Source: Litorilituus sediminis
Lineage (GTDB): Bacteria > Pseudomonadota > Gammaproteobacteria > Enterobacterales > Alteromonadaceae
Direction: 5' to 3'
NCBI RefSeq assembly: GCF_004295665.1
Contig: NZ_CP034759.1
Location: 3,410,001 to 3,474,000, forward strand
DNA: 64,000 bases
This document shows, piece after piece, positions 33,508 through 53,377 of the stretch (the first letter of the stretch is position 1; each line of letters begins with the position of its first letter). A program made the translations under genes and the position numbers. The notes below the pieces were generated by a model. The model was not told the origin of the DNA and ran no database searches. It saw only the letters and a list, made by a program, of their open reading frames with translations.

Positions 33508-34287
33508 TTGCAGCAGATAACTTTAGCGAATACATTAGCCATTGACGCTAGCTTTCAAGATCTTGAAAGCTTAATGAAAGCGCAACAAACCATGTGTTTG
33601 TTGGTTAATGCCAACACGCTTAGCATCAGCCAAGCAAATGCATTAGCACAGCAGCACTTGCAAGCAGCAGAATATGCAACATTTTCAGCTCGCAGGGCGA
33701 TTCAGGCGAAAAAGGAGTTTGTCACCAGCCGTTTATTGATAAAATCTTTTGCTTTGTGTTTTTTACGACAGCATAAGTCACTGGCTAACCATCTAACATT
33801 AAGCGATTTTCAGGTTTACTTTGATGAACAAACATTAAGCTTACAGCTTGTTTACGCTAAGCAAGCATTACCGCTTAATATCTGCCTTAGTCATAGCGGA
33901 GGTTATGTTCTGTTATATTTGTCAACTCAGTCGTTTGCTGTCGGGGTTGATATTGAAAAATATAAGGCTAAGCGAGATATATTGACCTTGGCTGAGCATT
34001 TTTATCATCCCCTTGAAAGCGCTTTAGTTAAGCAAGCCGGTGATAGTGCCTTTTATCGTTTATGGACATTAAAAGAAGCATTAGCGAAAGCAAGTAAGCA
34101 AGGGGTGGCAGATTTATTGGCGCAAAATACCGCATCAAGGCTAATGCTTTATCAGACCTGCAGTGGAGTGTTTTCACTGCCAGATGAGGATGCCTTATAT
34201 GATATCAGTATTGTCGCCAGTCAAGCAGGAAGCATTAACTCAGTATATTTATGTCACTGGGCTGATATTGCTGATTTATTTTCATAA
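33508..34287 (+). CDS. 4'-phosphopantetheinyl transferase (Sfp type)
   Basis: 259 residues if the TTG at 33508 is the start; no strong ribosome-binding site is visible and Met23 is an alternative. The C-terminal half carries the Sfp signature GVDIE (Asp148, Glu150, magnesium ligands) and FYRLWTLKEALAKA (Trp186, Lys189, Glu190, Lys194). It loads the coenzyme A arm onto carrier proteins. It is at the left end of a region containing an acyl carrier protein (46817-47101), two ketosynthase-type genes and DarA, so it is the probable activator of that system. Confidence 0.88.
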   Translation: MQQITLANTLAIDASFQDLESLMKAQQTMCLLVNANTLSISQANALAQQHLQAAEYATFSARRAIQAKKEFVTSRLLIKSFALCFLRQHKSLANHLTLSDFQVYFDEQTLSLQLVYAKQALPLNICLSHSGGYVLLYLSTQSFAVGVDIEKYKAKRDILTLAEHFYHPLESALVKQAGDSAFYRLWTLKEALAKASKQGVADLLAQNTASRLMLYQTCSGVFSLPDEDALYDISIVASQAGSINSVYLCHWADIADLFS

Positions 34288-34385
34288 GCTATGATTAATC
34301 ATTTGCTTAGCCTAGCTATTTAGGTAGTATATTCAGCCATTGCGGTAAGCACCTTGTTTTATAATAAAAATTCTTAAGTAATCCT

Positions 34386-35168
34386 ATGTTGAAAACTCTA
34401 AATCATCTCTGGCGTATATTAGCGACAGGTTTTTGTTTTGCCATGTTTGGTTTAGGTGGCGTGTTTTTAACCCTGTTTGTTTTCCCGCTGCAAAAATTAC
34501 TTATTCGCGATCAAGATAAAAAAAAGCAGCTTGCCCGTAAAACGGTGCACTATACCTTTAAATTTTTTATTGGCTTGATGGCTTGGTGTCGCATATTTGA
34601 ATTTGATTTAGCCAAGGCACAACAACTTAAAGCGCTAAATGGCCATCTGGTCTTGGCAAATCACCCGTCCTTAATTGATGTTGTTGTGCTGATTTCTATT
34701 ATTCCAAATGCTGACTGTGTGGTGAAAGCGCATTTATTTAAAAACCCATTTTTACGTGGCGTGGTGAAAAATACTGGCTATATTAGTAATGCTGATCCTG
34801 AGGGCTTATTGGTGGATTGCCAAGCATCACTGGCAGCAGGTAATAACTTAATTATTTTCCCCGAAGGTACCCGTACTACACCAGGCAAAAAGTTAAAGTT
34901 CCAACGTGGCGCCGCTAATATTGCCTTGCGTTGTAATGCTAATGAAAATCAGCCTTTGCAGTTAACCACAGTGTTACTTACCTTAGTTCCATCAACCTTA
35001 ACCAAGTCTGAATCTTGGTATCAAGTGCCAGAGAGAAAGGCGCAATTTGCCGCTGAAATTATGGCAAATGAGATTGAAATTCCGCCCTTACAGCCAGAAA
35101 ACGTGTCAAAGCAAGTACGAGAGTTAAATAACACTTTAGAGTCATTCTTTCTTCAGGCAAGTAGTTAA
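34386..35168 (+). CDS. 1-acyl-glycerol-3-phosphate acyltransferase-like protein (PlsC family)
   Basis: 260 residues with one N-terminal membrane helix (GFCFAMFGLGGVFLTLFVF). The acyltransferase motifs are intact: NHPSLID with His93 and Asp98, and FPEGTRTTPG at 159-168. Family members move acyl chains from acyl-ACP or acyl-CoA to a lysophosphatidate or similar acceptor. Next to a phosphopantetheinyl transferase and near carrier-protein genes it may handle an unusual acyl chain. General phospholipid PlsC is the alternative. Confidence 0.88.
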   Translation: MLKTLNHLWRILATGFCFAMFGLGGVFLTLFVFPLQKLLIRDQDKKKQLARKTVHYTFKFFIGLMAWCRIFEFDLAKAQQLKALNGHLVLANHPSLIDVVVLISIIPNADCVVKAHLFKNPFLRGVVKNTGYISNADPEGLLVDCQASLAAGNNLIIFPEGTRTTPGKKLKFQRGAANIALRCNANENQPLQLTTVLLTLVPSTLTKSESWYQVPERKAQFAAEIMANEIEIPPLQPENVSKQVRELNNTLESFFLQASS

Positions 35169-35298
35169 AGCAAAAGGTATTGAGAAGCTTTTACCTAAAA
35201 GAGTATTTGTAAGCAAAATTTACAGCCGCTAAATTACTCATTGAGCTGATAGGTTATTATGTCAGATAATGCAGAGAAATTTTGACTAATACATAAAT

Positions 35299-35925: not shown

Positions 35926-35940
35926 GTGTAAACCATCACA

Positions 35941-36969: not shown

Positions 36970-36985
36970 ATTAAAAGATGTGTTA

Positions 36986-37021: not shown

Positions 37022-37090
37022 GCTGGCTGTTTAGCAAAGTGTAGCAGGTTAGGCTTGCTGCAAATTAAAGAAAATTAATTTGGAGTACCA

Positions 37091-38291: not shown

Positions 38292-39299
38292 CTAAGCTGC
38301 TTTTATTGATAGCAGCTTTTCTCTTAGCGATTTTTCTTGGTCGGCACAGCTAATAAGCTTTTCAGAGACTTGAGTTAAGCTTAAATCTTTACGCTTTTTA
38401 CAAAATAATACCGCATCCATAGCAAATTCACGCCAATTATCACCTACCTCAGTGCCTTGCTTAGCCGCGGCTTGAAGTTGTTTATCACCAGTTAGCTTGG
38501 CTGCTTCATCAAGAAAGCTGGCAAACATAAAGCGAAAACCTGCGCCGCCAGTACCAATTTCTTCTTGCATACGCACGATATTACCAAGAAAAAGCTTTTG
38601 ATATTTAGGCTTTTCTTTTGTAAGTTTATTGATTTTCTTCGCTAAGTGTCTGATGCCTTTGTTACCAAAGAAAGGTAATAATAAACCATTCATCATTTTG
38701 GCTGTTTTGTTAACGGCAGCATAAATGTGCGGTGTTAAATCAACTTGCTTAGGTACATTACGCACTACGTACATTAAGCCTTTAGCAGCTAATGCGCCTT
38801 TAGCAAAACGGGCGCGTTGTAAGTCTTCTGCCGGGCATTCTACTACATGTTCAAATACAGGGTCGCTGATTAAGTAGTTACCTTGCGCTGTTTTACCGTA
38901 AACAATCAGGTTATGAGCATTAAAATGAAAACGCATATCTTCAGGAAAATACGGCAACCAATACACTGAGGTTTGCAGGCCAACTAAGTTACCCTTGGCT
39001 AATTCATCATCTAAGGCTTGCATGCCTTTTGCTTGATCAGAAAACTTACGGGTTTCCAGCTCAATATTAAGTTTTTTACATACAGACTTTATAATGGCCT
39101 TTGGCGGCATACGATAAGCAATTAACGGTAAGCCACCAATTTTTACCATAGGAAGGTAAACAAAGGTCATTGCAGAGGATAAACCAAACGCCATAGGCTC
39201 AGAAATATCTAAACCTTTGCTACGCAATAAAGTGGAAACAACACCGGTTTCACAGTGTGATGATTGCTGGTGTTTAATATCAATAATTATATCTTTCAT
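38292..39299 (-). CDS. BtrH N-terminal domain protein, putative acyltransferase
   Basis: 335 residues. The N-terminal half has a papain-like triad pattern: Cys16 in SSHCETGVVSTLL, His129 in HFNAHNLIVYG and Asp146 in LISDP. This is the BtrH-type fold; BtrH moves an acyl group from a carrier protein to an amine in butirosin synthesis. The C-terminal half is helical (the companion domain of this family). It is the last gene of a leftward unit with DarA, DarB and a small unknown protein, so it may release or transfer a carrier-bound product. Acceptor unknown. Confidence 0.8.
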   Translation of the reverse strand: MKDIIIDIKHQQSSHCETGVVSTLLRSKGLDISEPMAFGLSSAMTFVYLPMVKIGGLPLIAYRMPPKAIIKSVCKKLNIELETRKFSDQAKGMQALDDELAKGNLVGLQTSVYWLPYFPEDMRFHFNAHNLIVYGKTAQGNYLISDPVFEHVVECPAEDLQRARFAKGALAAKGLMYVVRNVPKQVDLTPHIYAAVNKTAKMMNGLLLPFFGNKGIRHLAKKINKLTKEKPKYQKLFLGNIVRMQEEIGTGGAGFRFMFASFLDEAAKLTGDKQLQAAAKQGTEVGDNWREFAMDAVLFCKKRKDLSLTQVSEKLISCADQEKSLREKLLSIKAA

Positions 39300-39334: not shown

Positions 39335-39751
39335 TTAGTTAGTTGAATCATTATGGTTTGGCAGGCTTTTAAGCTCAGCTATGGTCATTTTCATGACATC
39401 ACCATAGATGGCAAGCTTTTTATCTGAAAGCTTAGCAAACACTTTTGGCGTTAAATGACGCTTAATTTGCCATTGAAAAAAGCCAGTAGTTTGTGCAAGC
39501 GATACTAGGTCAAAGCGAAGTCTTAACATATGGTAAGCTAACGATGATACTTCACCATTTTGTGCTTTGATTAAGGCTTCATCACTTTGCTGTTGCAGCT
39601 CGTCTACTGCCATTTGCGTGGCAAAACTTTCAACTTCCCAACCAGTTGAGGTTACGCCTTGATAATGCCCTGATTCATCAACCGCATAAATGAGCTTTTT
39701 TTGCCCTTGGTAGGTAGCACTGTTATCTTGTGGAACGTCTTTTTTATCCAT
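39335..39751 (-). CDS. Uncharacterised protein between DarB-like and BtrH-like genes
   Basis: 138 residues, soluble, no signal peptide. It has a beta-rich N-terminus (KKLIYAVDESGHYQGVTSTGWEVESFATQMAVDELQQ) and a helical C-terminus (MLRLRFDLVSLAQTTGFFQWQIKRHLTPKVFAKLSDKKLAIYGDVMKMTI). I do not recognise the family. It starts 2 bp after the DarB-like stop, so it is translated as part of the unit and probably serves the same pathway as an accessory or regulatory subunit. Confidence 0.8.
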   Translation of the reverse strand: MDKKDVPQDNSATYQGQKKLIYAVDESGHYQGVTSTGWEVESFATQMAVDELQQQSDEALIKAQNGEVSSLAYHMLRLRFDLVSLAQTTGFFQWQIKRHLTPKVFAKLSDKKLAIYGDVMKMTIAELKSLPNHNDSTN

Positions 39752-39753: not shown

Positions 39754-40923
39754 TTACACCACGCTAAGTTGCATAAAGGCGCTTGAAAAGCGACCGCTTT
39801 CAGGAATGTAACACAGTAGCTTTTGTCCTTGCTTTAAGTTACCACTGTGGAAAAGCTCATCAAGCATAATAAAAATAGAGGCTGAGCCGGTATTGCCTTT
39901 ATTTGGTAAATTGGTAAACCATTTTTCAAATGGAATTTCAAAATCAATATTTTGCAGGCCTTGGAATAAGCGCTCGCGGAAATAGCCTGATGAATAATGC
40001 GGTAGGAAGAAATCATAATCTTCCGGCTTAATATCTCGTTTAGCAGCGATTTGGCTAAGGGCTTTTTCTACAGTGACTTTAACAATGTTTTCATTAAGCA
40101 ATTTTACATCTTGTTTAATCGCTGATAATGACAATTGCTCACGTTCTTGGCTCGAATAAAAAGCACTACCTTTTAATTGTCCGTTTTCTTTTTCTGCACC
40201 TGCGTACATACAGGCTTCTAGTTCGTTAGCAAACGAGAGTACGTCTATCCAATCAATTTTTAGTGATAAGCCTGTGGCCGATGGCTCGTTAGAGAGTAAT
40301 GCAGCACCTGCGCCATCTGATAACATCCAACGCAAAAAATCTTTTTCAAAAGCAAGCTCTGGCTTAGCTTCCAGTTGCTTGATTTTATAGTCGCTCTCGC
40401 CGGTAAAATTTCGGGCGTGCATCACGCTTGAAGCCAGCTCACTGGCAACCACCACACCTTTTTTGCTTTCACCTGCTTTGATTGCCATGTAACCATACTT
40501 CAATGCTGTAACACCGCATAAGCAAATACCTGAGGTTGAAATGACTTCACAAGGCGGATTTTTTAGTTCGCCATGTACCATAACGCCGTGGTTTGGCAGG
40601 CTTTGATCAGGGAGTGAAGTACTGGCTACTAAGGTATCAATTTGCGCCAATTCTGATGCTGAAGGTAACAGCTTTTCTACCGCTTCTGCGGCAAGCTGAG
40701 CATTGGTATAATTGAATTCACCCGTTTCTGGGTCTATACCGTAATGACGCGATTTAATTTGGTTACTACGAAGAATAATTGATTTAGCTCGAGAGCGTTG
40801 TCCGCCTACTTGACCTAAAACCTTTTCCATATCAGCATTGCTGACAGGATCATTGGGCATAACAGCACTTAAATTATTAATATAAACAGCGTTTTCTAAG
40901 GCTTTGAATTCCATGGTGTACAA
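39754..40923 (-). CDS. 3-oxoacyl-ACP synthase III-like enzyme, DarB-like
   Basis: 389 residues in the thiolase fold. The triad is visible: Cys134 in STSGICLCGVTALKYG, His309 in FLPHYSSGYFRERL and Asn344 in NKGNTGSASIF. Sequence around the cysteine differs from FabH (ACAG) and matches resorcinol-type synthases such as DarB. These join two acyl chains before ring closure. TTG 40923 has GGAG 5 nt upstream and overlaps the DarA stop region; ATG 40914 is the alternative. Cotranscribed with DarA. Confidence 0.85.
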   Translation of the reverse strand: MYTMEFKALENAVYINNLSAVMPNDPVSNADMEKVLGQVGGQRSRAKSIILRSNQIKSRHYGIDPETGEFNYTNAQLAAEAVEKLLPSASELAQIDTLVASTSLPDQSLPNHGVMVHGELKNPPCEVISTSGICLCGVTALKYGYMAIKAGESKKGVVVASELASSVMHARNFTGESDYKIKQLEAKPELAFEKDFLRWMLSDGAGAALLSNEPSATGLSLKIDWIDVLSFANELEACMYAGAEKENGQLKGSAFYSSQEREQLSLSAIKQDVKLLNENIVKVTVEKALSQIAAKRDIKPEDYDFFLPHYSSGYFRERLFQGLQNIDFEIPFEKWFTNLPNKGNTGSASIFIMLDELFHSGNLKQGQKLLCYIPESGRFSSAFMQLSVV

Positions 40924-41850
40924 CTACTCTCCAGAAGGCTCGGCAAAGTATGCCTTTTGCGCATTGGTGCGCTTTTGGGTAATGGGTTTGATGAGTTTTT
41001 TGATCAGTGCAGAAATTGGCACAACCGTTAAAATCAAGGTCAGCAAAAATAACACATAGACAGTAAGGCCACAACTTCGACGTATTGAGTTTTGTGGCCC
41101 TAGAGCACTAAGTAGTTTACTCCAGATGCGAAAACTGTGACTGCCAACACGTTCACTAGCAATAAGCTTTTCATTGATTTTTACCGCAGACAAACCTTTC
41201 AGCATTGGTTCGGTGATTTTGCTGTTATCACTGAGTAAACGGTTTTTGATGGCATCACCAAAGCGGCTTGAGTTTTCAATATCTTCATCACTCACGCCAG
41301 CTTTAGGTACCCAGCTATAAGATTTTTTGCGGCCAGTAAACATCCAAAGTGGTGTTGCTAAAAAGCTAAATGCTGCGCCACAATCATCAATCAGGGCAAC
41401 ATTATCTACCAGTTTTGCTTGTAATTGATTTAATAACCCTTTTACTTTTTCTTGTGCGTTTAGCCACATACCACGACAGCCAATCACGGTAACAACAGGT
41501 TTGTCTTTAAAAATTTTCTTGGCTTCATCTGATTGTAACAATGAAGAAATAGGCCTTGATGGTGATAAAAACCACACTTGATAACTAAGGATAATTAAAT
41601 CGTAATCATCAGCGTTATTAACAATATTGCTGTCAATTGGCTCTAAGGCTTGTGGGGTCATTTTTACTGTTTCAGGAAAAACATGAAAAAAACGGAAAAA
41701 TGGCCAAGGAAAAGGGTAATCTTCTTTTGGTTTAACCGTTAAGTACTCAAGCTCAATCTCGTCGCTTTTTTGCATGGGCGCTATGATAGCGTTGACGATA
41801 CGTGTTAATTGACCCGTTTGCGAATAATTAATAACAAGAACTTTGCGCAC
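40924..41850 (-). CDS. Dialkylresorcinol condensing enzyme DarA-like, flavodoxin-like fold
   Basis: 308 residues from a GTG. It starts RKVLVINYSQTGQLTRIVNAI, a flavodoxin-like strand and phosphate loop, followed by DYDLIILSYQVWFLSPSRPISSLL and PVVTVIGCRGMWL. Near the C-terminus is a membrane helix (GLTVYVLFLLTLILTVVPISALI). This matches proteins annotated dialkylresorcinol condensing enzyme, which close and aromatise the ring made by DarB. First gene of the leftward unit; it is divergent from a DUF2141 gene. Confidence 0.85.
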   Translation of the reverse strand: MRKVLVINYSQTGQLTRIVNAIIAPMQKSDEIELEYLTVKPKEDYPFPWPFFRFFHVFPETVKMTPQALEPIDSNIVNNADDYDLIILSYQVWFLSPSRPISSLLQSDEAKKIFKDKPVVTVIGCRGMWLNAQEKVKGLLNQLQAKLVDNVALIDDCGAAFSFLATPLWMFTGRKKSYSWVPKAGVSDEDIENSSRFGDAIKNRLLSDNSKITEPMLKGLSAVKINEKLIASERVGSHSFRIWSKLLSALGPQNSIRRSCGLTVYVLFLLTLILTVVPISALIKKLIKPITQKRTNAQKAYFAEPSGE

Positions 41851-41940: not shown

Positions 41941-42423
41941 ATGAAATTTCTCTACGTAACTTTGCTTTTTCTCAACATGTTTCACCAAGCAGCTTTGGCA
42001 AGTACTGAAGAGGAAAAAGTGACTCAGCAAGCACTAATGCAAGTGCAGATTGACAGAATTAAAAATGTTTCAGGGCAATTGCATTACCAACTTTTCGCTT
42101 GCCCAGATGATGATATGCATGGTTGGAATGAGTTGACTTTACTTAGCCAAGGACAAGTAGCTATTACAGACAATACTGTCGACTTGCCTTTAGCTGCTGT
42201 GGCAAGCAGTGAGGTTATTTTTCGCGCCTATCAAGACTTAAACAATAATGGTCAGTTAGATTATGCCAGTAACGGTGTGCCCAAAGAGCCAACGGCCTTT
42301 GCTAATAATCCTAATTTAATGCTAGGTATGCCCAAACCACTAGATGCTTGTGTGAATTGGCAAAATATCAGCACAGTGAAAGTCAAGATGAACAATAAGC
42401 GTCAACGACGAAAACGTGACTAA
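41941..42423 (+). CDS. DUF2141-family secreted protein
   Basis: 160 residues. A signal peptide (about 1-20, ending AALAS) precedes one beta-sandwich with the family signature FRAYQDLNNNGQLDYASNGVPKEPTAFANN and a basic tail. Function of DUF2141 proteins is unknown; in proteobacteria they often lie near carotenoid or lipid-synthesis genes. It lies between the two arms of the biosynthetic locus, divergent from darA. Confidence 0.85.
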   Translation: MKFLYVTLLFLNMFHQAALASTEEEKVTQQALMQVQIDRIKNVSGQLHYQLFACPDDDMHGWNELTLLSQGQVAITDNTVDLPLAAVASSEVIFRAYQDLNNNGQLDYASNGVPKEPTAFANNPNLMLGMPKPLDACVNWQNISTVKVKMNNKRQRRKRD

Positions 42424-42577: not shown

Positions 42578-44605
42578 ATGCCTTTTCCTCATTTACTAAA
42601 ACCACTCAATTTAGGTTTTACCCAGCTAAAAAATAGAGTTGTTATGGGCTCTATGCACACGAGCTTGGAAGAAACTGAACGTGGTTTTGAAAAGGTGGCG
42701 GCTTTCTACCAAGAAAGAGCTAAAGGTGGCGTTGGCTTAATTATTACCGGCGGTATCTCGCCAAATAACAGCGGTATGCTGGCGCCAAACCGTGCAGTAA
42801 TGCAAACAGCACAAGATGTAAAAGATCATCAACTGATCACCCAAGCTGTTCATCAGTATGATTGTAAAATCTGTATGCAGATTTTACATGCGGGTCGTTA
42901 TGCCTATGTGCCAGAGCAGGTTGCGCCCTCAGCTATTCAGGCGCCAATAAGCCCTTACTCACCAAGAGCGCTTGCTCATGACGAAGTCATTGAGCAAATA
43001 AATGATTTTGTCCATAGCGCTAGGCTTGCTAAACAAGCAGGATACGATGGCATTGAGATCATGGGCTCAGAAGGCTATTTGATTAATCAATTTTTAGTTA
43101 AGGCGACTAACCAAAGGCAAGATCAATGGGGCGGTAGTTTTGAAAATCGTATGCGTTTTGCTTTGGAAATTGTCAAACAAACAAGACAAGGCGTGGGCGA
43201 TGATTTTTTGATTATTTTTCGCTTATCACTCATTGATTTAGTTGAACAAGGCGCAAGCCGTGATGAAGTACTGACGTTAGCAAAACAGCTAGAAAAACTC
43301 AGCGTCAATATTATTAATACTGGCATAGGTTGGCATGAATCGCGTGTGCCTACCATAGCAGCAAATGTGCCAGCGGGTTATTTTTCTGGGCTAAGTGAAA
43401 ATTTAAAACAGCAAGTGAGTGTACCCGTTATTACCAGTAACCGCATTAATACCCCTGAGCTTGCCGAGTCGATAATTGCTAGCGATAAAGCGGACTTAGT
43501 CTCTATGGCGCGACCTTTTTTAGCTGATAGCCAATTTGTTAATAAAGCGATAGCGGATAAGTCAGATGAGATTAATACCTGTATTGGCTGTAACCAAGGC
43601 TGCTTAGATAAAATATTTGTTAGAAAAACGGCTACTTGCCTAGTAAATCCAAGAGCTTGTAACGAAACTCAGATGAATTTTGTTAAAGCAAATCGAGTTA
43701 AAAAGCTTGCTGTTGTTGGCGCAGGGCCAGCAGGATTAGCCTTTGCTAAATATGCCGCTGAGCGAGGTCATCAAGTGACCTTATTTGAAAAGTCTAACAA
43801 GCTTGGTGGTCAATTTAATTTAGCAGGCAAAGTGCCTGGTAAAAGTGAGTATTTACATACAATCCGTTATTTTAATAAACGCTTAAGCCAGCTTGGGGTG
43901 ACATTACAGCTAAATAAAGCGGTGTCAGCAGATGACTTAGCAAGCTTTGACGAAGTGATTTTAGCTACGGGCGTTAATCCGCGTATTCCTAATATTTTCG
44001 GTATTGAACAGGCAATAGCTGCAGGTAAGGTGCTGAGCTATGAGCAAGTGTTACAAGGTGAAGTTAAGGTGGGTAATAAAGTTGCCATTATCGGTGCTGG
44101 TGGTATTGGTTTTGATGTTGCCCAGTATTTATCTGATAACAGCCAAGAACCAGCTAGCGTAACTGATGAAAAAGAAAGCTTTACCCAAGAGTGGGGCATT
44201 GATTTGTCTTTATCTCACCCGGGCGGTTTGGTTGCCAAACAAATTACCCCTGCCGCGAGAGAAATTACTATGCTGCAAAGGCGTTTGCGTAAACCCGGTA
44301 CTGACTTAGGTAAAACCACTGGCTGGATTCATCGTCAGCATTTAAAAAATAAACAAGTGAAAATGATGGTTGGCGTCAGCTATGAAAAAATTGATCAACA
44401 AGGTTTACATATTTCAGTCAAAGGTAAGCCGCGCCTATTAGCGGTTGATCATATTATAAATTGCACAGGGCAAACTGAAGAAAATAGTTTAGCGCAGTTT
44501 ATTAACGATAAACCTTGCCATTTAATTGGTGGTGCGCTCGATGCCAGTGGTTTAGATGCAGAGCGCGCTATTTACCAAGCTGCGCAATTAGCACTAATAA
44601 TATAA
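42578..44605 (+). CDS. fadH: 2,4-dienoyl-CoA reductase (NADPH), FadH type
   Basis: 675 residues, the FadH length. The N-terminal Old Yellow Enzyme barrel binds FMN (LLKPLNLGFTQLKNRVVMGSMHT, ILHAGRYAY). The 4Fe-4S ligands are in CIGCNQGCLD plus a later Cys, and FAD/NADPH domains follow ([34 protein letters not shown]). It reduces conjugated double bonds of dienoyl thioesters. It may be the general beta-oxidation enzyme, but it immediately precedes the ABC exporter and carrier-protein genes, so it may also shape the pathway's acyl chain. Confidence 0.92.
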   Translation: MPFPHLLKPLNLGFTQLKNRVVMGSMHTSLEETERGFEKVAAFYQERAKGGVGLIITGGISPNNSGMLAPNRAVMQTAQDVKDHQLITQAVHQYDCKICMQILHAGRYAYVPEQVAPSAIQAPISPYSPRALAHDEVIEQINDFVHSARLAKQAGYDGIEIMGSEGYLINQFLVKATNQRQDQWGGSFENRMRFALEIVKQTRQGVGDDFLIIFRLSLIDLVEQGASRDEVLTLAKQLEKLSVNIINTGIGWHESRVPTIAANVPAGYFSGLSENLKQQVSVPVITSNRINTPELAESIIASDKADLVSMARPFLADSQFVNKAIADKSDEINTCIGCNQGCLDKIFVRKTATCLVNPRACNETQMNFVKANRVKKLAVVGAGPAGLAFAKYAAERGHQVTLFEKSNKLGGQFNLAGKVPGKSEYLHTIRYFNKRLSQLGVTLQLNKAVSADDLASFDEVILATGVNPRIPNIFGIEQAIAAGKVLSYEQVLQGEVKVGNKVAIIGAGGIGFDVAQYLSDNSQEPASVTDEKESFTQEWGIDLSLSHPGGLVAKQITPAAREITMLQRRLRKPGTDLGKTTGWIHRQHLKNKQVKMMVGVSYEKIDQQGLHISVKGKPRLLAVDHIINCTGQTEENSLAQFINDKPCHLIGGALDASGLDAERAIYQAAQLALII

Positions 44606-44613: not shown

Positions 44614-45618
44614 ATGGACATAAATGTGCAATCAGAAAACAAGCTAAATCACACCAGTATTATTCACGCGAAAGACTTGTCGTTTAAATACCCAAATAAT
44701 GATTATTATTCGGTAAATAAAGTCTCGCTTGATATTAAACGCGGCCAGTGTTTAGGCATTATCGGCCCCAATGGCGCAGGTAAATCAACGTTAATCTCTT
44801 TATTATGTGGTTTATTAAAGGCTGAGCAGGGCCAAGTTGACTTTGCTTCTTTAGCTGATGAAAAGCCGCTATCTTGGCAGGCAAGTATTGAAAAGTATGT
44901 TGCCCTTATTCCACAAGAATATGCCTTTTATCCTGAGCTGAGTATTAAGCAAAATTTAGAGTATTTTATTGCTATTAGCGAGCCTAATCGGAAAAAACAA
45001 AAGCAATTGTTAGAACAGGCATTGAATCAGTGTCAGCTAACGCATGTTGCCAAACAAAAAGCTGACAGTCTTTCCGGTGGTTATAAACGCAGATTAAATA
45101 TTGCCATCGCGTTAAGTAAATCCCCGGAAGTTATTTTTCTTGATGAGCCAACTGTAGGTATAGACCCAGTATCTCGCCAAGATATTGTTGATTTATTAGA
45201 GCAATTAAAAGCACAAGGTAAAACCTTAATTTATACCTCGCATATGTTGAATGAAGTGGAACAGTTATGTGATGACATTATTTTACTTGAGCAAGGTAAG
45301 GCGATTGCCGTAACAGATATTAGCAATAACCAAAGACAGAATATGCAAATTAACCTTGAGTTTTTTGCTGATAAAATCAATGCCAGTTTTATTGCTCAGC
45401 TAAACTCAGCGGCAAGCCCTGCCTCTGAAAAGGATTCATCTAATGAGCAACATTTACGGCTTAAGGTGGCTGATATTAGTCAGTTACAACAGATAATGCA
45501 GATAGTTAGTCAAGATATGAGTAGTATTAAAAGCTTACACTTTGCGCAAAATTCCATTGATCAATTGTACTTTGATGCCTATAAAAACACTCAGTCGAGT
45601 AAGGATGTGGCATGTTAA
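44614..45618 (+). CDS. ABC transporter ATP-binding protein
   Basis: 334 residues from ATG 44614, 8 bp after the FadH stop. Walker A GPNGAGKST (51-59), signature LSGGYKRR (153-160) and Walker B VIFLDEPTVGID (Asp177, Glu178) are intact. The DrrA/NatA-like exporter type is indicated by the GIDP motif and a C-terminal extension of about 100 residues. Its last bases overlap the permease gene by 7 nt, so they work as one exporter. Confidence 0.94.
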   Translation: MDINVQSENKLNHTSIIHAKDLSFKYPNNDYYSVNKVSLDIKRGQCLGIIGPNGAGKSTLISLLCGLLKAEQGQVDFASLADEKPLSWQASIEKYVALIPQEYAFYPELSIKQNLEYFIAISEPNRKKQKQLLEQALNQCQLTHVAKQKADSLSGGYKRRLNIAIALSKSPEVIFLDEPTVGIDPVSRQDIVDLLEQLKAQGKTLIYTSHMLNEVEQLCDDIILLEQGKAIAVTDISNNQRQNMQINLEFFADKINASFIAQLNSAASPASEKDSSNEQHLRLKVADISQLQQIMQIVSQDMSSIKSLHFAQNSIDQLYFDAYKNTQSSKDVAC

Positions 45619-46769
45619 TTCAAAGCGTTAAAAAAGAAGCCATTATCATAGCGAATGACTTGCACTCTTTAGCCGTACTCTTGTTACTGCCAATAACCTT
45701 TATGATTATCATGACCTTAGCTATGGGCGAGCAGCAAGATAATCTGGTGAAGAAAATTAACTTACAGCTTAGCTCTGCTGAAGGTGAAAGCAGCCAAGCC
45801 CTTTTAGCTGCCTATTTAGAGGCCAGTGGTTTTCGGGTCAATCAAGCGGATGCGGTTGATGCCAGTCTTACCATAGAGCAAGGTTTTCAAGATAACCTGT
45901 TAATGCGCCAAGGCAGTGGCGCTATCACCTTAAGCTATAGCGATGAACTATCACCACAAACCCGCGCCATGGTGGTTGAATTAGTTAAGGTGGCTATTTC
46001 AAAATTAAAATTACATGCTTATATGCAAGATGTAGGTGACTTTGATGAAGAGTTATCCTTAGCTGAAAAAGTTACCCTAGTAAATAATAGCGCCAGTGTT
46101 GATCATTTATTAACTCAGCAACAAGAGCAGCAAATCTTTGCGGCACCGACCTTATATAGCATTCCATCTTGGTTGATTTTTGGTATTTATTTTATTGTTT
46201 TACCTATTTCAACCACCTTAATTAAAGAAAAAGATAATGGCACCTTAGTACGTATTCAAACCTACCCGATTACCAACCAAGCCTATTTTTTTAATAAAGC
46301 GTTATCGTACGGTGTCGTTAGTGTTTTTCAGTGGCTGTTGTTATCTGCTGTTGGTTTGTTGTTTGTCCCTTGGTTAACGGAACAGGCCCTATTGGCAATT
46401 CATGGGCCATTACTCTACCTATTTTCAGCACTGTTTATTATTTTTGCAGCCATAGGTTTTGCCTTTTTAATGGCGTCTATTGTTAATACCTATGAACAAG
46501 CCATAGTGCTTGGTGGCGGTATTAATATATTACTGGCAGCCTTAAGTGGTTTTATGGTGCCAATTGATATTATGCCAGAGGCCTTAGCGCAAATAGCAAA
46601 TTACTCCCCTATGTATTGGTCGGCTGAATTACTTAAGCTTGGCCTTGGCGGAGAAAACTTTGCCCAAGCATTACCGTATTTATTGCGATTACTTGGCTTT
46701 GGCGGTTTATGCTATATCGCAGCATTAGCCATTTTTAATCATAAAACCAATAACTTGTCGTGGAGCTAA
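45612..46769 (+). CDS. ABC-2 type transporter permease
   Basis: 385 residues. TM1 (about 17-37) is followed by a large extracytoplasmic domain (about 40-185). A cluster of five TM segments follows, from IPSWLIFGIYFIVLPISTTLI to LLGFGGLCYIAALAIF. LIKEKDNGTLVRIQTYPI is the coupling segment typical of ABC-2 exporters. It overlaps the ATPase gene. In this cluster it probably exports the product or its precursor. Confidence 0.9.
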   Translation: MLIQSVKKEAIIIANDLHSLAVLLLLPITFMIIMTLAMGEQQDNLVKKINLQLSSAEGESSQALLAAYLEASGFRVNQADAVDASLTIEQGFQDNLLMRQGSGAITLSYSDELSPQTRAMVVELVKVAISKLKLHAYMQDVGDFDEELSLAEKVTLVNNSASVDHLLTQQQEQQIFAAPTLYSIPSWLIFGIYFIVLPISTTLIKEKDNGTLVRIQTYPITNQAYFFNKALSYGVVSVFQWLLLSAVGLLFVPWLTEQALLAIHGPLLYLFSALFIIFAAIGFAFLMASIVNTYEQAIVLGGGINILLAALSGFMVPIDIMPEALAQIANYSPMYWSAELLKLGLGGENFAQALPYLLRLLGFGGLCYIAALAIFNHKTNNLSWS

Positions 46770-46816
46770 AGCGAACAAGTTTAGATTGGTAGTATTTTCA
46801 TTATTAGGATGTGATT

Positions 46817-47101
46817 GTGGACATTAATTCATTAAGTAAAGCGCAGTTAACCTTGTTGATAAAGCAGTTAATTGTTGAAGAATGCGATAAAGAAGACGAC
46901 TTTGAGCCAGAAGATATCTTAGACGAAGAGCCATTGTTTGGTCGTAAATCTCGCATTGCGCTTGACTCTTTAGACGCATTGCAACTGTCTTTGGTATTAA
47001 AGAAGCAGTTTGCCATTAGCATTGAAGGCTCAAAGGAGTCACGTAAGCACTTACAGTCGGTTGATACCATAGCGCAATTGATCCTTGCGAAGCAGGCATA
47101 A
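46817..47101 (+). CDS. Acyl carrier protein
   Basis: 94 residues from GTG 46817, with AGGA 7 nt upstream (GTG 46811 is too close to it). Phosphopantetheine attachment site Ser51 in LDSLDALQLSLVLKKQF. It is more divergent than the fatty-acid AcpP and longer at the N-terminus, as expected for a pathway-specific carrier. It starts the ACP-ketosynthase pair; the synthase ATG is 2 bp after its stop. The phosphopantetheinyl transferase at 33508 may activate it. Confidence 0.92.
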   Translation: MDINSLSKAQLTLLIKQLIVEECDKEDDFEPEDILDEEPLFGRKSRIALDSLDALQLSLVLKKQFAISIEGSKESRKHLQSVDTIAQLILAKQA

Positions 47102-47102: not shown

Positions 47103-48881
47103 ATGACTGCTTCGGCGAATGACACCATGGCGAAAGTTTATGTGAACGCTAGTGCTAGCTTAAGTGCTTTAGGTGAGGAAATTACAGATATAAGTGATTT
47201 TACCAAGGCACAACAGCTTAATCGCCTTAGCGCGCCTTTATCATGTTTTTATCAAGCAATACCGCTAGCACCGCTAAATGAAAGCGAGCAACGTATTTAT
47301 CAATTATTAACGCATGTTATTGATAAGATTATTGCAAAACTTGCCTTGGACGCCGAGCAATTAGCCAATACCTGTCTTTTTTTAGGTTCGTCATCACTCG
47401 ATATAGGTTGTATTGAAAGTGATGCAAGCAAGGCGATTTGGTTAAACCCGCTTGAGCATATTAATCAGCACTTACGGGCTAAGTATGCATTTGCCCAGCT
47501 GCACTACACCTTTAATACCGCTTGTACTTCTAGCGCTAATGCTTTGCTTTATGCGAATCGTTTAATTAAAGCCGATAAAATAAAGCAGGCCTTAGTGATT
47601 GGTTGTGAGTTTTATAATCAACTGACCCTAAAAGGCTTTGATTCATTAGAATTACTCTCCAAGCAAGGATTATTTGCTTTTAGCCCATCTCGTGATGGTA
47701 TGGTGCTCGGCGAAGGTGTTGGCGCAATATTGTTATCGAAAGCTAAAAAAATTAACGCTACGAAAGCAAAGCTTGCCTTACTTGAAGGCTATTCTTCTTG
47801 TGATACCTATAGCTTAACGACAACTCAAGAAGATGGCGATAAAATCGCGCAGGTGATTGAACAAGCTGTCGCTTTAGCTGATGTTAAGTTAAGTGATATA
47901 GACCTAATAAAGGCGCATGGTACAGCATCACCTGCCAGTGATCAGGCAGAAGCACAGGCATTAAATAGCTTATTTCAAAATAGAATCAATACCTTAGCAC
48001 TAAAGCCTTATGTAGGGCATACCTTAGGTGCCTGTGGTGCATTAGAGCTTGCAATTTTAAATCAGCTTATCGATTTAAATATGATGCCTCAAGCGCATTA
48101 TCAACATACCGAGTTAAACCCTTTAGTACCATTAGCTAATAGTGGCCAATCATTTACTGATATTCGTTATATTTTGCTAAACCACTGTGGTTTTGGTGGT
48201 AATAATGCCGCCTTAGTGGTTGAGCATTTAAATGCTGCTACCTGTAATAGCTCTGACCGCGAAAGCACTGACTGTAAAAGCGCGGAAAAAAACAGAGCAA
48301 ATAAACAAGACGCGATAAAGAATAGCGCATCAATTTTAGCGAGCACGTGTGTAAGTTATGCAAGTGATGAAACAAATAAAGCTATTCGCAAACAAGTTAA
48401 AGCGATAACAGGTTTTGAAGTAAGACGCATGGATAGCTTTACCTTAATTGCCTTGCAAGCAGCGGCGCAATTGTTAGCGAGTGAAGAGGTTGAGGTATAT
48501 TTTGCTAATAACAGCAATAGTAATAGCGAACAAGTTAAACCGCTTGCCCAAGCACAGCTAGGGCTTTATGGTGTTGCCGATTACCTTTCTGTTGAGCTGC
48601 TACAATCGCTAGTGGAAACGGTAGAGCAAGGGCACGATATTAGACCGTTTGATTTTATCTCGACCGTAGGTAATGCCGCAAACTTTTATATTGCTAAGCA
48701 ATTTAATGTGGAAGGCGTTAATTTATTTAACGGCGCCAGTGAGCAAGCACTTGAACGTACCCGTTTGCTTATTGAGCAAGACCTTAATTTAAACTTGATT
48801 GATTATGCTTTGTTAGTGCACTGGCAACAGCAAGCAGAGCAGTTTACTTGTCATGCGTATTTAATTGCGCCTCAAGTGTAA
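47103..48881 (+). CDS. Beta-ketoacyl-ACP synthase with extra C-terminal KS-like domain
   Basis: 592 residues from ATG 47103. Residues 1-378 are a KAS-II-type condensing enzyme with the complete triad: Cys141 in FNTACTSSANAL, His272 in KAHGTASPASD and His306 in YVGHTLGACGALEL. A polar linker (about 380-410) leads to an extra domain (about 415-592). Its ISTVGNAANFYIAKQFNVEGVNLFNGASEQAL resembles the N-terminal half of ketosynthases and chain-length factors but has no active-site Cys. So it is a fused active synthase and a degenerate partner half. It likely extends chains on the ACP encoded just upstream. Confidence 0.85.
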   Translation: MTASANDTMAKVYVNASASLSALGEEITDISDFTKAQQLNRLSAPLSCFYQAIPLAPLNESEQRIYQLLTHVIDKIIAKLALDAEQLANTCLFLGSSSLDIGCIESDASKAIWLNPLEHINQHLRAKYAFAQLHYTFNTACTSSANALLYANRLIKADKIKQALVIGCEFYNQLTLKGFDSLELLSKQGLFAFSPSRDGMVLGEGVGAILLSKAKKINATKAKLALLEGYSSCDTYSLTTTQEDGDKIAQVIEQAVALADVKLSDIDLIKAHGTASPASDQAEAQALNSLFQNRINTLALKPYVGHTLGACGALELAILNQLIDLNMMPQAHYQHTELNPLVPLANSGQSFTDIRYILLNHCGFGGNNAALVVEHLNAATCNSSDRESTDCKSAEKNRANKQDAIKNSASILASTCVSYASDETNKAIRKQVKAITGFEVRRMDSFTLIALQAAAQLLASEEVEVYFANNSNSNSEQVKPLAQAQLGLYGVADYLSVELLQSLVETVEQGHDIRPFDFISTVGNAANFYIAKQFNVEGVNLFNGASEQALERTRLLIEQDLNLNLIDYALLVHWQQQAEQFTCHAYLIAPQV

Positions 48882-48909: not shown

Positions 48910-49896
48910 TTAGTTACTTTGCACTAAAGCAACTAACTCACTGCGGCTATTAATGTTTAACTTATCGTAAATACGGTAAAGGTGGTTTGATACCGTTGAG
49001 GGAGATATTTCAAGTTGCTTGGCAATTTGTTTAAAAGTGCTGCCTTGGCAAATGCCAGCCACCACTTGTTTTTCTCTTGCGGTTAAATCATCTATCAGAC
49101 TTTTACTACGCAGGGTAAGGCGAAATAAATCTGCGTTTTTTTGTACACTTACGTGCAGGTTACCAATGGTGAACTCACTGGCTTTATCCGCTAAGGTAAA
49201 AGGTAACGCTTGCTCATTGCCATCACCTAACGGCTTAACTAAATCGAGAAAGCTCGCCTCAACCGCATGATATATGCCATGGCTATCACATAGCGCACTA
49301 GCAACTCCTTTTTTCTCTGCTACTTGCTTTGCCTCACTACTTGATTCAGTCTCGCTAAGAGCGATAATTTGCCTATGCGAGGCAGCTTTAAGTAAGTGAA
49401 ATAGCAGCTGGTTTTGCTGTAGCTTTTCTTGCTCGGTAAAATTGTGATTGCGATCAAAGCGATATAGGGTGAGCAAGGTGAAGATACCACTGCGCTCATC
49501 TAAGTGAATGGAACTGAGAATTCTTTCAATATCAAAAGGCTTAAAGCAGTGTAAATAGAGCTTAGATTGATAAAAGTCTTTATCTTCAATAACATCTGCC
49601 ATATCAATGGCTTTGCCTTTGTTCTCTAGTAAGGTTGGAAAAATCGGATTAATAGCCAAATGTTGCTTGAGTTTAGTTAATAACTCAGGTGAAACATCAA
49701 CACAGGTATGGGTATGAAATTGCTCGGTGGCAACATGACCTGTTGCCCAAATAGCACCATCAAATGGCACCACTTGCTGTAATAAATCTAATGCCCACAC
49801 GGAGAAGTTTTCTAACGGAATGCTCGCGGCTTTGCAATAAAGTCGGCTGATAAATTCATCTATGCTGAGCTGTTTATTGATCAATGTGTTACTCAC
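48910..49896 (-). CDS. LuxR-family transcriptional regulator
   Basis: 328 residues. The C-terminal GerE/LuxR helix-turn-helix is DDLTAREKQVVAGICQGSTFKQIAKQLEISPSTVSNHLYRIYDKLNI. The N-terminal 250 residues look like a GAF-like sensor domain and are not a clear acyl-homoserine-lactone domain or receiver. It lies between the ACP-KS genes and the FAD dehydrogenase gene, divergent from the latter, so it probably regulates this locus. Confidence 0.88.
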   Translation of the reverse strand: MSNTLINKQLSIDEFISRLYCKAASIPLENFSVWALDLLQQVVPFDGAIWATGHVATEQFHTHTCVDVSPELLTKLKQHLAINPIFPTLLENKGKAIDMADVIEDKDFYQSKLYLHCFKPFDIERILSSIHLDERSGIFTLLTLYRFDRNHNFTEQEKLQQNQLLFHLLKAASHRQIIALSETESSSEAKQVAEKKGVASALCDSHGIYHAVEASFLDLVKPLGDGNEQALPFTLADKASEFTIGNLHVSVQKNADLFRLTLRSKSLIDDLTAREKQVVAGICQGSTFKQIAKQLEISPSTVSNHLYRIYDKLNINSRSELVALVQSN

Positions 49897-49985
49897 AAAG
49901 GAAACGCTATTAGGTAATTTTTACCATGGTCAGGTTGATTTGAATAGCACAAACTCAATTCATTGATAACTATTAGGTGTAGATT

Positions 49986-51626
49986 ATGACAGTGAAACGA
50001 GTCGATACATTAATTGCGGGTGGCGGTATCGCCGGTTTAGTGACAGCACTAGAGTTATTACAAGCGGGTCAACAGGTTTGTATTGTCGATAGAGATACGC
50101 CGCAGCGCATTGGCGGCTTAGCGCGTTGGGCGTTTGGTGGCATGGCACTTTGTCAAACCCAAGAGCAGCAGAAAATGTCGATAGCCGATAACCCGAGTGT
50201 GTTATTAAAAGACTGGCATAGTTTTGCTGAGTTTACTGCTGATGATTTCTGGCCAAAGGCATGGGCGAAAGAATACGCAGATAATAATTATCAAAAGGTT
50301 TATCTGTGGCTAAAAGATTTAGGATTGAGCTTTTTACCGGCAGTAAACTGGGTCGAGCGCGGTTTGTATACCCCAGGTAATTCAATGCCGAGATACCACG
50401 TACTTTGGGGAACGGGCTGGCATTTAATTGAAACCATTTTAGCTAAGCTAGCACCCTATGTAGCAACTAAAAAGCTGCACTTTCTTCATCAGCATAAAGT
50501 TGTTTCATCAATCATTGAGCAAGCGCGTGTTGTTGGCGCACTTATTATGGATGAAAAAAATCAAAGTGATCCCTTTGCTATGCATTGCCAAGACTTAGTC
50601 ATTGCCTGTGGTGGCATTAATGGTAGCACTGAGCGAGTAAAAGCGAATTGGTGTAAAGCTTGGGGTAAAGCACCAGAAAGCTTACTCAATGGTGCTAACC
50701 CGTTATCAGATGGTAAGTTACATGATCATTTAGCATCGATTGGTAGTAACTTAACTCGTCTTGATGATATGTGGAATTATGCTGCGGGAATCAAGCACCC
50801 ACAAGCAGAGTTTGAAGGTCATGGCTTAAGTTTGATCCCGTGTAAATCTGCCTTGTGGTTAGATCATAGCGGTAAACGTATAGGGCCAGTACCGCTTGTT
50901 ACCGGCTTTGATACTAATTACATGTGCCAGCAAGTGGCAAGGCAAGCAAAACCTTGGACTTGGCAAATCCTCAACTGGAAAATTGCCGCGAAAGAGCTAG
51001 CCGTTTCTGGCTCGCAGCATAACCCTGCAATTCGAGATAAAAAATTCTTTACCTTATTAAAAGAGCTATTGCTGGGGAATCATCGCTTAGTGAAGCAACT
51101 GGTCGCTGAATCAGATGATTTTGTTTGTGCCGATAACCTTGAGCTTTTATGTCAGCAGATGAATGCTAAGACTGATGCTAGTTATATTGCTTATGACACC
51201 TTGGCAAATGAAGTAAATCACTATGATCAACAAATCAACTCAGGTTTAGAAAATGACGATCAGTTAAGAAGAATTCGTCATGCCCGCCAGTGGCGACCCG
51301 ATAAATTACGTACTTGTAAACCTAAAGCCATTTTAGCAAAAGAGTCGGAGCCATTAATTGCCATTCGTTTACAGCTTATCAGTCGTAAAAGTCTTGGCGG
51401 TGTGCAAACTAACTTATCGAGCCAAGTACTTAATCAGCAAGGCGAGGTTATCGAGCACTTATATTGTGTTGGTGAAGCCGCAGGCTTTGGCGGAGGCGGC
51501 GCAAGTGGTAAACGCTCATTAGAAGGCACGTTTTTATCTGGCTGTATTTTAACGGCTCAAAATGCCGCCGCAGCTATAATTGAAGCAAAAAGTGAAGCAA
51601 ATAGCCAAGCAAATAAAAACAACTAA
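49986..51626 (+). CDS. FAD-dependent dehydrogenase, ketosteroid-dehydrogenase/fumarate-reductase family
   Basis: 546 residues. The dinucleotide motif LIAGGGIAGLVTALELLQAG is at the N-terminus, and the second FAD segment LYCVGEAAGFGGGGASGKRSLEGTFLSGCIL at the C-terminus, as in FAD dehydrogenases that remove hydrogens next to a ketone (3-ketosteroid Delta1-dehydrogenase). In a cluster with DarAB it could oxidise a cyclohexenone or cyclohexanedione ring. It is divergent from the LuxR gene and 11 bp before the ThDP-enzyme gene. Substrate unknown. Confidence 0.85.
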   Translation: MTVKRVDTLIAGGGIAGLVTALELLQAGQQVCIVDRDTPQRIGGLARWAFGGMALCQTQEQQKMSIADNPSVLLKDWHSFAEFTADDFWPKAWAKEYADNNYQKVYLWLKDLGLSFLPAVNWVERGLYTPGNSMPRYHVLWGTGWHLIETILAKLAPYVATKKLHFLHQHKVVSSIIEQARVVGALIMDEKNQSDPFAMHCQDLVIACGGINGSTERVKANWCKAWGKAPESLLNGANPLSDGKLHDHLASIGSNLTRLDDMWNYAAGIKHPQAEFEGHGLSLIPCKSALWLDHSGKRIGPVPLVTGFDTNYMCQQVARQAKPWTWQILNWKIAAKELAVSGSQHNPAIRDKKFFTLLKELLLGNHRLVKQLVAESDDFVCADNLELLCQQMNAKTDASYIAYDTLANEVNHYDQQINSGLENDDQLRRIRHARQWRPDKLRTCKPKAILAKESEPLIAIRLQLISRKSLGGVQTNLSSQVLNQQGEVIEHLYCVGEAAGFGGGGASGKRSLEGTFLSGCILTAQNAAAAIIEAKSEANSQANKNN

Positions 51627-51637
51627 AAGAGGTCGCT

Positions 51638-53377
51638 ATGAAAAAAACAGCAGCATGGTTAGTAAGATACGCCTTAGAGCAGCTTAATGTCAGTCATACC
51701 TTTGGAATTCCTGGTGTGCATAATACAGAAATTTATGATGAGCTGGAAAATTCAGATTCTATTGAGCCTGTACTTGTAACGCACGAAGGCTATGGCGCTT
51801 TTATGGCAGATGCTATTAGTCGAAGTAGCGATAGCACGGGCACTTTAGTGATTGTACCTGCGGCAGGGGCGACCCATGCCGCTAGTGGGATTGCCGAAGC
51901 ATCGCTTGATGGTATTGCCATGTTGGTGATTACAGGGGGCGTGCGTACAGACTCTCATTTTGATTATCAACTGCACGATATGGATCAACACGCCATGATG
52001 GCGCCAATCACTAAAAAAACCTATAAAGTGACGTCTCACCAAGAGGTTGTTAGTACGCTATTTGAGGCGTATCTGTTAGCCAATTCTGGCGAGCCAGGCC
52101 CTGTATTTGTTGAGATCCCTGTGAATTTGCAACTAGATAAAGGAGAAGTTTCCCATTTACCTATATTTGAGCCTAGTGTGCTGGCTGCTGATGCCAGTGT
52201 GGTAGCGCATTATCAAGCAGAATTAGCTGAGGCTGCTAACTTATTGGCGAGTGCTAAAAATCCGGGCATTTTTCTCGGTTGGGGCGCTGTTGAAGCAAGT
52301 GCTGAAAGTGAGCAAATTGCCAGCTTACTGAATGCGCCTGTTGCTACCACCTTACAAGGGTTAAGTGCTTTTAGCGGCAAACATCCTATGCATACAGGTA
52401 TGGGCTTTGGCCCTGCTGCTGTGCCAGCGGCAAGTAATGCTTTTGCCGAGTGTGATTGCTTGCTTGCTGTTGGTACGCGCTTTGCGGAAATTGCTACGGG
52501 TAGTTTTGGCGTTAAAGTGCCGAAAAACCTGATTCATATTGATATTAACCCGAATGTATTTAATGCCAATTATGCTGCTAAGCTTGCTATGGCTGGTGAT
52601 GCTAAGGTGCTTCTGGCAGAGCTTAATCGCTTATTAGCTGATAGCGATATTGTGAAAAAACCGGCTGATATCGCCAAACAAATTGCCCAAGATAAATTAG
52701 CTTACCAGAAAGAGTGGCTTGAGCACGATAGTAAAGATAAGGTTAATCCGGCGGTATTTTTTAATGAGTTAAGAAACAGTATTGAGGATGATGCTTTTGT
52801 TATTGCTGATGATGGTAATCATACCTTTTTAACTGCAGAGTTAATGCCTTGTTATCAAGCTAAACACTTTTTTAGTCCTACTGATTTTAACTGTATGGGC
52901 TATGCTACCCCAGCGGTTATTGGCACTAAGCTGGCTAACCCTGATAAGCAAGTGATAGGCATTATTGGTGACGGCGCTTTTTTAATGAGTTATACCGAAC
53001 TATTTACCGCGAGCGATAGACAACTGGGCGCTATTTTTACTGTGTTTAGTGATGGCGAGCTTGCGCAAATATCACAAGCACAGCAAACCCCATATAACCG
53101 TAAAACCTGTACTAAGATGGCGAACATTAAAATTAAAGCTATGGTGGAAGCGGCCGGCTGTCATTATTTGATGATAGAAAATAATGAACAAGTTAATGAC
53201 AGAGTAGCGCAAGCCTTAGCCTTAGCAAAACAGAATATTCCTGTTGTATTAGATGTTAATATTGACTACAGCAAACGCACGCGATTTACCCAAGGTATTA
53301 TCAAAACCAACTTATCGCGCATGAAGTTACCGACTAAAGCGCGTATGATCAGTCGAGCGCTGTGGCGACGTATTTAA
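51638..53377 (+). CDS. Thiamine-diphosphate enzyme, acetolactate synthase-like
   Basis: 579 residues in three domains: Pyr (about 1-170, catalytic Glu50 in VTHEGYGAFMADA), central (about 190-325) and PP (about 365-555, IIGDGAFLMSYTELFTA). The usual NN that ends the GDG motif reads SDGEL, so it is outside classical acetolactate synthases. Family members make or break C-C bonds next to a carbonyl. The chemistry here is unknown; candidates are ligation of a keto acid to the product or ring cleavage. Paired with the FAD dehydrogenase. Confidence 0.85.
   Translation: MKKTAAWLVRYALEQLNVSHTFGIPGVHNTEIYDELENSDSIEPVLVTHEGYGAFMADAISRSSDSTGTLVIVPAAGATHAASGIAEASLDGIAMLVITGGVRTDSHFDYQLHDMDQHAMMAPITKKTYKVTSHQEVVSTLFEAYLLANSGEPGPVFVEIPVNLQLDKGEVSHLPIFEPSVLAADASVVAHYQAELAEAANLLASAKNPGIFLGWGAVEASAESEQIASLLNAPVATTLQGLSAFSGKHPMHTGMGFGPAAVPAASNAFAECDCLLAVGTRFAEIATGSFGVKVPKNLIHIDINPNVFNANYAAKLAMAGDAKVLLAELNRLLADSDIVKKPADIAKQIAQDKLAYQKEWLEHDSKDKVNPAVFFNELRNSIEDDAFVIADDGNHTFLTAELMPCYQAKHFFSPTDFNCMGYATPAVIGTKLANPDKQVIGIIGDGAFLMSYTELFTASDRQLGAIFTVFSDGELAQISQAQQTPYNRKTCTKMANIKIKAMVEAAGCHYLMIENNEQVNDRVAQALALAKQNIPVVLDVNIDYSKRTRFTQGIIKTNLSRMKLPTKARMISRALWRRI

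Follow-up and report, generated by a model that had tools for sequence, protein, structure and literature searches.

The window analyzed here is a stretch of 64,000 nucleotides from the Litorilituus sediminis genome (contig NZ_CP034759.1; C1:3410001-3474000), and it holds a set of dar genes, i.e., genes for making a dialkylresorcinol (DAR). This locus is very probably the DAR half of a single flexirubin/arcuflavin-type pigment locus, the other half being a full aryl-polyene (APE) cluster at window coordinates 64787-81746. The most likely product predicted from these genes is an aryl-polyene acid esterified with DAR, a pigment of the yellow-orange class. An initial annotation, made from the window alone, had proposed a new pathway and stated that the usual aryl-polyene genes were absent. 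That absence is an artefact of the window edge: the APE cluster begins 787 bases beyond it and was therefore invisible. The claim of a new pathway fails, and the locus belongs to a known type of pigment cluster. Other parts of the annotation held up well, as every open reading frame (ORF) it named is present at its coordinates, and the genes support a dialkylresorcinol-type pathway with its own acyl carrier protein (ACP), ketosynthase (KS), and exporter.

The dar genes lie in two divergent arms. The leftward arm (minus strand) has the order DarA-DarB-DarD-DarE. DarB (39754..40923), a ketosynthase/cyclase expected to join two acyl units, matches NF005293 at 570 bits (cutoff, 450); it exceeds the StlD/DarB cutoff but, at 472 bits, falls short of the 550 required by the narrower resorcinol_DarB model. 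DarA (40924..41850), the dialkylresorcinol condensing enzyme (aromatase), was recognized from named homologs, as the informative source names among 120 listed homologs are mostly “dialkylresorcinol condensing enzyme.” It has no Pfam or NCBIfam match at an E value of 0.001, and Pfam at an E value of 5 and PDB sequence searches gave only chance-level matches. DarD (39335..39751; 138 amino acids), left as an unknown in the initial annotation, matches NF053536 at 178 bits (cutoff, 70). DarE (38292..39299) is a BtrH-like acyltransferase (PF14399 and PF16169; NF053550 at 486 bits, cutoff 300) in which Cys16, His129, and Asp146 are conserved at 1.00 across 74 sequences. NCBIfam calls the last two proteins DarG_fam and DarH; we matched them by position to darD and darE of Azoarcus (PMC3949708).

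The rightward arm (plus strand) starts with a DUF2141 protein (41941..42423; PF09912) that is probably exported, judging by a leader peptide recognized by eye. It is followed by FadH (42578..44605; PF00724 plus a pyridine-nucleotide domain), a 2,4-dienoyl-CoA-reductase-like flavoenzyme and pigment-linked paralog. Next come the ABC transporter ATPase DarF (44614..45618; PF00005) and the ABC-2 permease DarI (45612..46769; PF12698), the counterparts of Azoarcus darF and darI. The ATPase ORF extends from 44515 and so overlaps FadH, and the ATG at 44614 is the likelier start. The ACP, DarC (46811..47101), carries Ser53 in a DSLD motif; its family matches are weak (NF006617 and NF052616, both below cutoff; Pfam PP-binding, E = 0.058). 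The arm ends in a DarJ-DarK fusion (47103..48881, with ATG 47103 as the likelier start), a ketosynthase joined to a half-size domain resembling a chain-length factor (CLF), identified from split homologs, profiles, and models.

The APE cluster opens with an ApeC-type Ketoacyl-synt_2 protein (PF13723; C1:3474847-3475533), followed by an ACP, a membrane protein, an AMP ligase, an ApeI-type dehydratase, a GT2 protein, and an LpxL-like acyltransferase. Its middle part consists of an aromatic amino acid lyase (PF00221), a 4HBT thioesterase, a LolA-like protein, a large exporter, and a lipoprotein. It closes with a KS (NF006618, above cutoff), a FabZ/ApeP-type dehydratase, a FabG-type reductase, a second KS (NF006587, above cutoff), and a MipA/OmpV-like protein. 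The LolA, exporter, and lipoprotein labels are based on size, position, and the look of the sequence; the LolA-like protein has no Pfam match, the lipoprotein has no NCBIfam match, and the ApeP label is taken from a homolog in a same-genus genome (G021; PF22817). Between the reductase and the last KS is a 1.1-kb gap (window coordinates 78560-79638) for which the ORF filter (at least 75 amino acids) listed nothing; it contains only short pieces of reading frame.

How well is this arrangement conserved? We scanned with eight DarB sequences and compared the neighborhoods of the best 80 of at least 541 confirmed relatives, a set that leans toward close relatives of the window DarB. Genes in relatives were labeled by their best BLASTP match (E value of 1e-4 in one comparison, otherwise above about 42 to 45 bits), and weak labels (ThDP enzyme at 26 to 27% identity, ABC at 29%) were treated as background. 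Of these loci, 17 do not reach 19 kb; among the 63 that are at least this long, 52 hold all eight core genes together. The initial annotation had allowed that its two arms might never occur together, and this comparison of neighborhoods shows that they belong together, in an arrangement that is not a chance one. Across all 80 loci, DarA was found in 77, DarD and BtrH in 73 each, the ABC ATPase in 66, the permease in 64, the ACP in 60, the KS in 56, and DarK in 54, with DUF2141 in 31 and FadH in 4. DarB and the KS were both called in 56 loci; 32 of these have a convergent KS arm, 22 have it on the same strand, and 2 have a divergent one. The split, divergent layout was rejected as a remarkable trait, as four other genomes have it as well (G010, G025, G188, and G400). 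AraC and DJ-1 genes were rejected as pathway members because they are missing at the syntenic locus of G025, a member of the same genus.

Linkage between dar and APE genes is seen across the genus. DarH exceeds its cutoff in 8 of 61 genomes, including 5 of the 37 in the genus (our own among them), and each of the other four dar-positive genomes of the genus (G010, G025, G021, and G009) has APE genes near dar, although the locus is broken in G009. In G025, the order is MFP-RND-PPT-PlsC-PqiA, BtrH-D-B-A, DUF2141-FadH-ABC-ABC-ACP-KS, MOSC, GGDEF, and then APE, where PPT is a phosphopantetheinyl transferase; dar is likewise near APE in G010. The two halves form a single block in G021 (ABC-ABC-ACP-KS-DarK-PPT-ApeC-PlsC-ACP ... 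KS, FadH, DUF2141, DarA-B-D-E, KR, MipA, where KR is a ketoreductase) and, as far as fetched, in G188, which has the same divergent order as the window and continues directly into APE genes. An APE-type lyase (at least 70% identity) is present in 5 of 5 dar-positive and 9 of 32 dar-negative genomes of the genus (Fisher P = 0.0046, ignoring kinship); such genus-level statistics overstate the support, because related genomes are treated as independent. At the order level, DarH was found in 18 of 394 genomes, of which 5 were already in our set and one (G147) was left out. Several APE genes are present in the stretch for 6 of the 12 new loci examined (G307, G400, G075, G185, G188, and G393); one further locus (G310) is on a contig of only 11 kb. 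FadH occurs in 2 of the 12 (G400 and G188) and a fused KS in none.

Some of these loci depart from the common pattern. In the apparently broken dar/APE locus of G009 (G009:C1:679946-707331), the aromatic lyase, exporter, and FadH are each split between two ORFs, and no ABC-ABC-ACP-KS arm was found within 70 kb; decay and assembly error are indistinguishable here. In the APE-DAR loci of G043, G185, and G393, the fetched stretch lacks an aromatic lyase and contains two genes resembling AMP ligases, which suggests a different aryl starter.

Two genes on the lower-coordinate side of the leftward arm also fit the pigment locus. A PPT (33508..34287, plus strand; PF01648) would likely activate the pathway ACPs; its homologs adjoin PlsC in G025 and apeC/PlsC in G021, G034, G003, and G307. 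The neighboring PlsC-type acyltransferase (34386..35168, plus strand; PF01553) is assigned to the pigment cluster, and its homologs lie inside the APE block of G021, G034, G035, G003, and G037.

The combination of genes had already been reported in other organisms. The dar cluster of Azoarcus sp. BH72 (azo0283-0293) comprises darA, darB, darD, darE, darF, darI, darC, darJ, and darK (PMC3949708, Table 1), in which darD is a conserved hypothetical protein, darE is BtrH-like, darF is an ABC ATPase, darI is an ABC permease, darC is an ACP, darJ is a ketosynthase, and darK is hypothetical. The window has a counterpart for every gene except the PHD/PilT pair that is named darG/darH there, and in both organisms an APE cluster is present in the same genome. 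The loci differ in layout. The Azoarcus genes have consecutive locus numbers with the PHD/PilT genes between, darJ and darK are separate, and the APE loci are unlinked, whereas here we find two divergent arms, a DarJ-DarK fusion, added FadH and DUF2141 genes, and an APE cluster about 16 kb away. Our DarK was equated with Azoarcus darK by position, not by sequence. The flexirubin clusters described for Chitinophaga pinensis and Flavobacterium johnsoniae (PMC3992019) likewise combine DAR genes with an aromatic amino acid lyase, a coumarate ligase, a KS, a KR, a dehydratase (DH), LolA, a glycosyltransferase, an acyltransferase, and an exporter. They belong to a different phylum, and they differ in that the lyase of our locus is below the FlxA cutoff and we noticed no methyltransferase here. 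Nearer at hand, resorcinol-aryl polyene hybrid clusters coincide with yellow-orange color in Pseudoalteromonas distincta/arctica (PMC9966250). Synteny is given there at the antiSMASH level, and the main text has no mention of dienoyl, DUF2141, or BtrH; other Pseudoalteromonas dar loci in our comparison (L049 and G400) hold the same genes as this one. Among the Litorilituus papers listed by a literature search, none has a title on pigment, and plasmid records gave only Streptomyces proteins at about 30%.

A route can be proposed. An acyl chain built by DarC and the fused DarJ-DarK would be coupled by DarB with a second acyl unit, and the ring would be aromatized by DarA to give a 2,5-dialkylresorcinol. 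The DarB/DarA route passes through a cyclohexanedione step. From an aromatic amino acid, the APE cluster would make an aryl-polyene acid by way of its lyase, AMP ligase, KS-CLF, KR, and DH. An ester bond, possibly formed by the BtrH-like acyltransferase, would then link the polyene acid and DAR, and the ABC pair, the LolA-like protein, and the APE exporter may carry this ester to the outer membrane. The ring-forming part has a precedent, as DarA/DarB homologs expressed in a foreign host yield DAR (Fuchs 2013, cited in PMC3949708). For the hybrid reading, the genes present, their adjacency, their homology, and their conservation are observed, and we infer what the product is, which enzyme makes the ester, and what FadH does.

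Does FadH belong to this pathway? The protein aligns with the 2,4-dienoyl-CoA reductase 1ps9 over residues 3-674 (E = 1.5e-241). It keeps the OYE domain, a CxxCxxxC-x11-C (4Fe-4S) motif from residue 335, and Tyr167 and His253. Both of the latter presumably have active-site roles, which we assign from E. coli FadH. These retained catalytic and Fe-S residues would also suit a housekeeping beta-oxidation gene located here by chance, and FadH is missing from 76 of the 80 DarB stretches and from 10 of the 12 order-level loci. We nevertheless consider this unlikely. The genome has a second FadH copy, at C1:1963093, and a tree of 34 rows places 8 of the 9 pigment-linked FadH sequences in one clade with 100/99 support. 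The ninth, from an Aliivibrio metagenome-assembled genome (L085), lies beside dar and outside this clade, and a common origin of the pigment-linked label for all nine is rejected by the tree; L085 may represent an independent recruitment. For its 25 unlinked rows, the tree uses the best copy from each genome for which a locus was given. It omits second copies (including that of the window genome) and genomes lacking a locus, whose best copies reach 57% identity at most; all of these were scored as outside the linked kind. On this basis, linked-kind FadH is present in 5 of 5 dar-positive genomes of the genus, near dar, and in 1 of 32 dar-negative ones (P = 1.4e-5, ignoring kinship), counting the broken FadH of G009 by position and identity, as it is not in the tree. 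The single dar-negative case is G030 (G030:C11:88165-113506), in which neither DarB nor DarH has a match. Its FadH is an unbroken frame in the order PlsC-FadH-APE, and the sister of this FadH in the tree, from G010, has dar genes on both sides. Because FadH is kept beside APE genes in a genome that lacks dar, this one genome suggests a role on the polyene side.

Several points weigh against a joint DAR-APE pigment. The product of this organism is a prediction from its genes. The lyase is below its NCBIfam cutoffs (FlxA, 335 of 700 bits; HutH, 399 of 539), and the AMP ligase, in which AMP-binding is present, scores 107 of 335 against the 4-coumarate ligase cutoff, so the aryl starter unit is a tentative assignment. 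A distance of 15.9 kb lies between the KS and the APE cluster. In addition, for six genomes with dar, the 37 to 70 kb fetched holds no convincing APE gene: G049, which has an APE-type lyase elsewhere (58%), and five of the 12 order-level loci, for which the stretch holds no APE gene (G138, G164, G211, G225, and G397). Thus, dar can stand alone or be accompanied by an unlinked APE cluster. The same six stretches agree with an end product that is a free, exported dialkylresorcinol or cyclohexanedione, with the adjacent APE cluster making an independent pigment; so does the ABC exporter that the dar arm carries for itself, and so do the APE clusters of six genomes without DarB (G030, G034, G035, G003, G024, and G037). 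We regard a free product as improbable, since APE genes are near dar in all five dar-positive genomes of the genus and, in G021, the KR and MipA genes follow DarA-B-D-E in one run. The pigment of Azoarcus, arcuflavin, points the same way, as it contained DAR and free DAR was not found in the extracts (PMC3949708). The esterified DAR-polyene remains the product that we favor.

Directly after the KS, this genome has a LuxR regulator (minus strand), a FAD dehydrogenase, and a thiamine diphosphate (ThDP) enzyme (both plus strand; 48910..53377 for the three). They are a local insertion and bystanders to the pathway. Among the 80 DarB loci, none has a relative of the LuxR or FAD dehydrogenase gene, and one has a relative of the ThDP gene, at 27% identity. 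None of the three was found at the dar loci of G010, G025, G021, G009, G043, or G049, and the sole match at the 12 order-level loci is a 26% ThDP match in G185. The syntenic G025 locus keeps the flanks without these three genes, as it does without AraC or DJ-1. The ThDP protein has matches at an E value of 1e-100 in 14 of 61 genomes; the FAD dehydrogenase adjoins it in 11 of the 12 ThDP loci given, and 8 of those 11 genomes lack DarB (e.g., G034, G019, and G015). In G025, about 129 kb separates the pair from dar; in G009, the two are on different contigs. Within the genus, ThDP is not associated with dar (3 of 5 dar-positive versus 9 of 32 dar-negative genomes; Fisher P = 0.30). Several relatives retain the pair (49986-53377) as a unit of two genes, independently of dar. 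The initial annotation had the FAD dehydrogenase and ThDP enzyme tailoring an acylated resorcinol that would be new. This proposal could draw on their position and on a ThDP gene somewhere in three of the five dar-positive genomes of the genus, but we rejected both as tailoring enzymes and give that proposal hardly any weight, given their absence at the syntenic locus and their separate travel from dar.

Beyond the described cluster type, the locus has two traits of its own, the pigment-linked FadH paralog and the DarJ-DarK fusion. The fused ORF encodes 598 amino acids, with a ketosynthase to about residue 385 and a CLF-like domain at about 408-598, i.e., about 190 extra C-terminal residues. 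DarJ and DarK are separate neighboring genes in G021 (384 and 206 amino acids) and G052 (384 and 287 amino acids). The fusion is found in G010 and G025 and in none of the 80 named DarB loci; full-length fusions of 560 to 605 amino acids make up 24 of 120 listed database homologs (P0001-P0024). In single pairwise comparisons, not database searches, a DarK profile (53 sequences) matched an ApeC profile (8 sequences) with a probability of 97.7% and the DarJ ketosynthase profile with 94.3%, versus only 37.8% for ApeR. The catalytic Cys147, His278, and His312 are present in the window protein; in the DarJ alignment, the Cys and second His are found in 57 of 57 sequences and the first His in 48 of 57. 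The C-terminal domain appears as a half-size thiolase-fold partner without the catalytic Cys.

A structural model of the fused protein (pLDDT, 78.6; pTM, 0.86) had the KS-CLF of PfaC, presumably part of a polyunsaturated fatty acid synthase, as its top Foldseek match, at 14% identity. That structure (PDB 6riw) also has KS and CLF on one chain, which is far longer (923 residues), and the relative placing of the two halves is unmatched, as the root mean square deviation is 10.4 over 780 columns. Because the structural alignment list for the whole model covers only residues 12-383, the C-terminal domain was modeled alone (pLDDT, 90.2). Its first Foldseek match was 7f28_C/A and its sixth was ApeC (6qsp_B), with ordinary ketosynthase chains scoring equally well. 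In the KS-CLF heterodimer ApeO-ApeC, the CLF is half-size and has a single thiolase fold (PMC8358021; PDB 6qsp); DarJ-DarK resembles this heterodimer, on one chain here versus two in APE. Altogether, the split homologs, the ApeC profile match, the models, and the KS residues lead us to read the fused protein as a putative one-chain KS-CLF.

These traits suggest a broader proposal, which we advance tentatively. In some Colwelliaceae, the DAR ketosynthase may have become a natural KS-CLF on one chain, its CLF being half-size, and in several Alteromonadales a dedicated FadH paralog may have joined the pathway, acting on the aryl-polyene side to reduce a conjugated dienoyl thioester and so setting chromophore length or saturation. 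We found no paper joining dialkylresorcinol or aryl polyene with FadH or dienoyl-CoA reductase, in a search that subscription literature was mostly outside of, so the link may be published. With the new-pathway claim corrected, the locus takes its place among the known flexirubin-type pigments, here in marine Colwelliaceae. The points that the analysis opens are modest: a one-chain KS-CLF may set the alkyl chain of the resorcinol, and a dienoyl reductase may tune the aryl-polyene chromophore.

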